Source: Candidatus Eiseniibacteriota bacterium | GTDB lineage: Bacteria > Arandabacterota > Arandabacteria > JAGLYR01 | Direction of reading: 5' to 3' | Length of the DNA stretch: 7,272 nucleotides | NCBI GenBank assembly: GCA_023132135.1 | Contig: JAGLYR010000258.1 | Coordinates: forward strand, 1 to 7,272 | In this document: positions 7,062 through 7,160 of the stretch, piece after piece | Position numbering within the stretch: position 1 is the first letter of the stretch | Layout: each line of letters starts with the position of its first letter | The notes under the pieces: generated by a model | Told to the model about the DNA's origin: nothing | Seen by the model: only the letters and a program-made list of their open reading frames with translations | Databases searched by the model: none | Made by a program: the position numbers and the translations under genes

Positions 7062-7093
7062 CTGATGCGGGCTCTTTGGGCCCAAGCGACTGT
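7062..7093 (-). ncRNA. Predicted donor-binding loop of the bridge RNA
   Basis: On the - strand the left donor guide ACAGTCGCT (7093-7085) is identical to the element's right end plus core (6094-6086), 9 of 9; the identity stops exactly at both borders. Then come T, GGGC (7083-7080), a 7-nt loop, GCCC (7072-7069) and the right donor guide GCATCAG (7068-7062). The last is complementary to the start of LE, CTATTGC (7261-7255), at 5 of 7 positions. The loop lies directly before the transposase ribosome site. Confidence 0.72.
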
Positions 7094-7128
7094 TCGGGGT
7101 GTACGTGTGGCAGCGGTGAAGGATCCTG

Positions 7129-7160
7129 CTATTTCACGGGCTCCATGCCCAAGGAAATGA
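7129..7160 (-). ncRNA. Predicted target-binding loop of the bridge RNA
   Basis: On the - strand the left target guide is TCATTTCCT (7160-7152). Next come T, GGGC (7150-7147), a 5-nt loop, GCCC (7141-7138), GT, then the right target guide GAAATAG (7135-7129). The left guide agrees with the left target plus core, CCATTTCCT (7268-7260), at 8 of 9 positions. The right guide is fully complementary to core plus right target, CTATTTC (6087-6081). An outer stem AAG(A)GATC with GATCCTT (around 7168-7161 and 7125-7119) would close the loop. Confidence 0.72.

Follow-up and report, generated by a model that had tools for sequence, protein, structure and literature searches.

Two loops of one noncoding RNA, encoded on the minus strand near the end of a 7,272-nt stretch of Candidatus Eiseniibacteriota bacterium DNA (contig JAGLYR010000258.1, hereafter the window), carry hairpins with the same arms, while the guide segments beside those hairpins differ. 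Why should the two loops look alike? A first-pass annotation, made from the sequence alone, had described them as diverged copies of one 32-nt module, and had proposed that the RNA arose by duplication or that a single protein surface of the recombinase reads the two hairpins. The reading we favor, to which we give a probability of roughly nine in ten, is that the window holds an IS110-group insertion sequence with a bridge RNA of the type described for IS621 (Durrant et al. 2024, PMC11208160; Hiraizumi et al. 2024, PMC11208158), and that the likeness of the loops stems from four equivalent protein sites, each of which demands the same letters. Features below lie on the minus strand unless otherwise stated.

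The insertion sequence and its ends

The window encodes a 313-aa DEDD recombinase of the IS110 family (6103-7044), with matches to Pfam PF01548 and PF02371. Pfam and alignment give it a DEDD RuvC-like domain and a Tnp domain with a catalytic Ser, the domain arrangement of the IS110 group. In alignment with IS621, its D10, E54, D96, D99 and S235 fall on the DEDD residues and S241, the roles of which are taken from the IS621 structures (PMC11208158), and among solved structures the protein matches the recombinases of ISCro4 (PDB 9t56, E 1.3e-43) and IS621 (PDB 8wt6, E 3e-39). The bridge RNA lies upstream of the gene, which starts at 7044, and within the left end of the element, again as in the IS110 group. 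The arrangement of the IS1111 group, a guide RNA in the right end and long subterminal inverted repeats, is not found here, with the RNA at the left end and the distance from the stop (6103) to the right end (6086) too short to hold one. The element is an IS110-group (IS621-like) insertion sequence, a known kind. RNA-guided recombination is predicted for it, and we infer the protein contacts and the recombination chemistry from IS621.

The insertion sequence spans 6086-7252 (about 1167 bp), with a left end at CT/TGTATGTTGG and a right end at ACAGTCGC-T/ATTTCC, the slash marking the boundary. These ends are supported by like repeats that stand uninterrupted elsewhere in the genome, for example CTATTGCCTATTTCCTGTGGGT in locus L007, and the right end repeats the left donor guide, which further supports the call. 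In 149 of 185 relatives, CTTGTAT precedes the bridge RNA. An alternative left end, CATTTC-CT/ATTGCC, gives a better match to the left guide (8/9), and was rejected because the relatives and IS621 begin CT/TGTAT and because CTATTGCCTATTTCC is present as an unbroken repeat in L007.

A genome search found the element as a single copy in its own genome, and no copy was found in the 7 other genomes of the phylum when the whole phylum (8 genomes, including its own) was searched. It is inserted within a run of 7-nt CTATTTC-like repeats. The right flank ATTTCCTGTGGGTACCTGGCGACGCC (6060-6085) is the target, a dispersed intergenic sequence adjoining 7-nt repeats; this dispersed sequence, TTTCCTGTGGGTACCTGGCGACGCC, has 8 copies in the genome, one of which holds the element, versus 0 for a reversed control pattern. 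Copies of TTTCCTGTGGGTACCTGGCGACGCC border runs of 7-nt repeats such as CTATTTC/CCCATTT (window 6060-6085; loci L002-L009 and L258-L261). Related elements occur in 5-13 identical copies in some complete genomes (G240, G843 and G590), and such multicopy genomes would allow target rules to be deduced from numerous insertions that share a guide.

The bridge RNA, its guides and its loop lengths

The bridge RNA core, a target-binding loop followed by a donor-binding loop, occupies 7051-7176 and was placed by covariation and by a covariance model that had not seen the window. This second model, built from 16 relatives with the window left out, matches 7176-7051 at E 5.8e-18 with 26 pairs, and also matches IS621 (E 2e-4) and other relatives. 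In a comparative alignment of 48 relatives taken from one scan, 95.8% of cells show the 26 pairs formed, and both sides have changed in 15 pairs (shuffles, 9.5; slid controls, 4-7). The core is preceded by a predicted 5' stem-loop, TTGCGAGCCCGTGGGTGGGCCCGCAAC (7178-7204), taken from the minimum free energy (MFE) fold and equivalent in place to the 5' stem-loop of IS621. Folding of the single sequence gave the target hairpin correctly and mis-paired the donor loop, and the comparative structure was used instead. The first covariance model detects the IS621 bridge RNA at E 6.7e-7 in a locus with an annotated IS621 transposase (L256). Counting along that locus, the letters A43, G48, A67, G72, A116, G121, A150 and G155 are those named in PMC11208158, and the IS621 numbering is transferable because these A and G positions are in register with the structure paper.

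Between the conserved modules of each loop, the left guide would read one strand of the DNA as far as the CT core, and the other strand would be read by the right guide, which ends in AG. The right target guide GAAATAG (7129-7135) is complementary at 7/7 positions to the right flank CTATTTC (6087-6081), and the left donor guide ACAGTCGC (7086-7093) is identical at 8/8 positions to the right end of the element (6094-6087). The right donor guide ATCAGCAAG (7058-7066) was placed by the conservation of CAAG and by alignment with IS621; the GCAAG portion of its ..AUCAGCAAG pairs with the element's own left end CT/TG (7254-7251). The left target guide TCATTTCCT (7152-7160) matches the present left flank CTATTGCCT (7261-7253) at only 6/9, which we count against our preferred reading. 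Taken together, the target guides fit the insertion site and the donor guides fit the element's own ends, as is characteristic of the IS110 group. Across the family, left target guides match left flanks at 5.33/9 versus 3.42 when shuffled (n=128) and right target guides match right flanks at 6.08/7 versus 3.35 (n=78), and the left donor guide recurs at the 3' end with at least 7/8 matches in 110 of 134 relatives, versus 7% in shuffled ends.

Measured from the start of the left guide to the core-pairing AG, the target loop is 32 nt long (7160-7129) and the donor loop, by the same definition, is 36 nt long (7093-7058), its core-pairing AG being that of GCAAG (7059-7058). The loops had been described as both exactly 32 nt, an equality that came from choosing the wrong donor AG, the one in CATCAG (7063-7062), which falls 4 nt short of the AG in GCAAG. 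At that place the dinucleotide is unconserved (TT, GC, CG, TG and others), whereas CAAG is present in the right donor guides of 159 of 180 relatives and GCAAG aligns with the U-G-C-A-A-G of IS621. Read from the sequence, the first handshake pairs also fit the 36-nt register, with position 81 (C) facing donor position 7 (G) and position 166 (G) facing target position 7 (C); in the earlier register the base after AG is C, which is unable to pair with the C at target position 7. Equal loop lengths occur in just 3 of 146 relatives.

Hairpin likeness in the element and among relatives

The target-loop hairpin is GGGC-ATGGA-GCCC (7138-7150; flipped A at 7142, then syn G at 7137) and the donor-loop hairpin is GGGC-CCAAAGA-GCCC (7069-7083; flipped A at 7073, then syn G at 7068). 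Aligned on the minus strand, the target segment C-T-T-GGGC-ATG-GAGCCCG (7153-7137) and the donor segment C-T-T-GGGC-CCAAA-GAGCCCG (7086-7068) are identical at 14/14 arm letters and their flanking guide letters are unlike, both as the first-pass annotation had noted. A hairpin pair with such identical arms appeared in 0 of 3000 dinucleotide-preserving shuffles of the 208-base leader, so that the identity is beyond chance when compared with random sequence. We therefore give practically no credence to a chance inverted repeat lacking any RNA function: the leader's MFE fold beats shuffles by a small margin only (z -1.9), which such a repeat could explain, but the shuffles, the covariance model match, the covariation and the guide matches all stand against it. 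With the family as the null, however, the similarity of the two hairpins is largely expected.

That expectation comes from the modules on which both loops are built. Each loop rests on two A-N4-G modules, one at its base and one in its apical hairpin; a module consists of a 4-bp helix with an unpaired A before it and an unpaired syn G after it. In the window, module M1 (A-GATC-G, 7161-7166) lies in the lower helix of the target loop and equals A43...G48 of IS621, M2 (7137-7142) is at the target-loop apex, M3 (A-CCCC-G, 7095-7100) lies in the lower helix of the donor loop and pairs with GGGG at 7054-7051, and M4 (7068-7073) is at the donor-loop apex. The covariance model places the four modules, at the base and apex of each loop, in each of 185 bridge RNAs, and in every module the unpaired A and G are retained in at least 177 of these. 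The N4 letters are mostly GACC or GATC at the target base and GCCC or ACCC at the donor base; at the apices they are GACC in the target loop of 111 RNAs and GCCC in the donor loop of 146, the usual hairpins being GGUC/GACC and GGGC/GCCC, respectively. Across the family, the A and the G beside each helix are fixed, and the helix itself mostly keeps to R-N-Y-C.

In IS621, a flipped-out A and a syn G are found at four equivalent places; they are highly conserved, the Tnp domains of four protomers recognise them in the same manner, and the target and donor loops take similar pseudo-symmetric shapes (PMC11208158). All eight of these letters are present in the window, as letters only, the conformation being known from IS621. 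By analogy with IS621, the four modules would be held by four recombinase protomers, one protomer to each module. The proposal that the same protein surface reads both hairpins fits the IS621 structure and the eight positions present here, and stands on that basis; in essence it is already published for IS621 (PMC11208158), and it applies to the basal modules too. Directly observable in the window are its membership in the group, the helices, the complementarity of guides to target and to donor, and the motif at all four places, a finding that repeats in one element the pseudo-symmetry already seen in the IS621 structures. As bridge RNAs are being engineered into programmable recombination tools, it is useful to learn which letters of the hairpins the protein fixes and which can change freely.

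A further pattern concerns the second helix pair, which in 162 relatives is predominantly A-U in the target-loop modules (110 and 120) and C-G in the donor-loop modules (151 and 150); IS621 breaks this pattern. We float, as a speculation that is probably wrong, that the second pair labels the loop and that in this IS110 branch it might let the recombinase distinguish target dimers from donor ones. If so, elements that carry donor letters in the target hairpin, like that of the window, would be natural tests.

Hairpins might also be kept alike within each element, through gene conversion or through reading by one surface, and so change together. We compared 162 distinct relatives, none above 52% in protein. 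Within one element, the hairpins have 6-14 of 14 letters in common, with a mean of about 9.6, versus about 9.2 for hairpins from different elements (162 RNAs; both means derive from the distributions). In 11 of the 162 both stems are identical, and apical loop lengths are equal in 43 and vary independently. Unthinned permutations gave z-scores of up to 4.3 for hairpin identity, which we set aside since redundancy among relatives inflates them, preferring cluster-thinned and tree-based tests. After thinning, stem identity is 0.713 versus 0.694 expected (z 2.65, 88 clusters) or 0.686 versus 0.636 (z 2.2, 29 clusters), and the overall within-element excess has z of about 2.2-2.7 (clusters at 65-80%), with no single position above 2.3. 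This slight excess is what concerted change would produce, but base composition or leftover relatedness could cause it as well.

Other comparisons speak against concerted change. No coupling was seen at stem position 2, the one at which the window is unlike the family (15.1 matches versus 14.5 expected, 77 clusters). In 81 nearest pairs, 20 had changed in the target hairpin only, 6 in the donor hairpin only and 6 in both, the last being mostly distant pairs. Independent pairs on the recombinase tree showed no coupling of hairpin changes, although few of these pairs are informative. Variation in the donor hairpin is small, which limits the power of the comparison between hairpins. In most elements, moreover, the two hairpins are unlike (GACC and GCCC). 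Concerted evolution of the hairpins is thus very unlikely. Covariation across relatives had been put forward as the check on this point: the guides do vary independently, as anticipated, but the hairpins do not clearly covary beyond the weak excess. From these sequence comparisons we read the hairpins as varying independently within a common constraint, with weak coupling possible; family-wide, the two need not match.

Among the 162 relatives, only the window reaches 14/14, and its exact identity is a one-off in this element and not a sign of hairpins evolving together. The GCCC of the target hairpin here would be a substitution from the usual GACC that has arisen separately in several lineages; the recombinase tree, a quick one with long branches on which the placement of the window is unsure, requires 7 changes to account for this hairpin state.

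The same data bear on duplication, under which a tandem copy of one loop made the two-loop RNA and the hairpins are its visible remains. Both loops do hold their parts in the same order, the A-N4-G modules occupy equivalent places in all relatives, and the IS621 structure is pseudo-symmetric. However, the likeness is confined to letters with a structural or protein role; the outer stems (10 bp versus 4 bp), loop lengths, linkers and right-guide lengths all differ; and the identity seen in the window is absent from its relatives, and hence is not an ancestral trace. Since nothing is shared outside protein-contacted or paired positions, the sequence offers no positive evidence for duplication. 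The description of the loops as diverged copies of one 32-nt module falls with their lengths of 32 and 36 nt and with apical stems that usually differ in relatives (GACC versus GCCC). A recent duplication is not supported and an ancient duplication of loops or half-loops is possible; overall, we consider duplication a doubtful account of the likeness, though a less improbable one than concerted change. The imposition of the same letters by four equivalent protein sites is the explanation we prefer.

The sX15 family and known bridge RNA systems

The Rfam family RF02234 (sX15) matches the plus strand of the window at 7041-7189, across the bridge RNA. A plasmid stretch of Xanthomonas hortorum (L257) gives a score of 150.9 bits for sX15 on the plus strand (1201-1359) and one of 61.6 bits (E 1.2e-14) for the bridge RNA model on the opposite strand (1220-1346). 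There the bridge RNA is followed by a reading frame starting MNGIGIDVCKAKL, which resembles an IS110 start; this reading-frame fragment beside sX15 retrieved no Pfam match and no convincing tblastn match. RF02234 is listed in Rfam as a free-standing sRNA of Xanthomonadaceae, whereas the locus is the same as that of the bridge RNA, on the antisense strand. By these model matches sX15 appears to be the reverse complement of an IS110 bridge RNA, the explanation being either an error of strand in the family or an antisense RNA transcribed opposite the bridge RNA.

Among known systems, IS621 resembles the window in having its RNA in the 5' position, with two loops, left and right guides and a CT core. 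The two also share a right donor end CTTGTAT, a left donor beginning ACAGT.., a flipped A and syn G at four places, and a recombinase with DEDD and Ser residues. They differ in that their proteins are 34% identical and their targets are different, that of the window being a genomic 7-nt repeat. The IS621 hairpins, furthermore, are non-identical (N4 of ACCT and AUCC, with a donor hairpin of 22 nt), whereas those of the window are identical. ISCro4 (PDB 9t56) has the closest solved recombinase by the E value given above, a likeness that is one of recombinase comparison. The seekRNA of IS1111/IS110 elements (Siddiquee et al. 2024, PMC11187229) is likewise a noncoding RNA with two short target-pairing segments, as here. 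In IS1111 elements, however, the seekRNA lies downstream of the gene, while the RNA of the window lies upstream, as it does in the IS110 group (PMC11187229).
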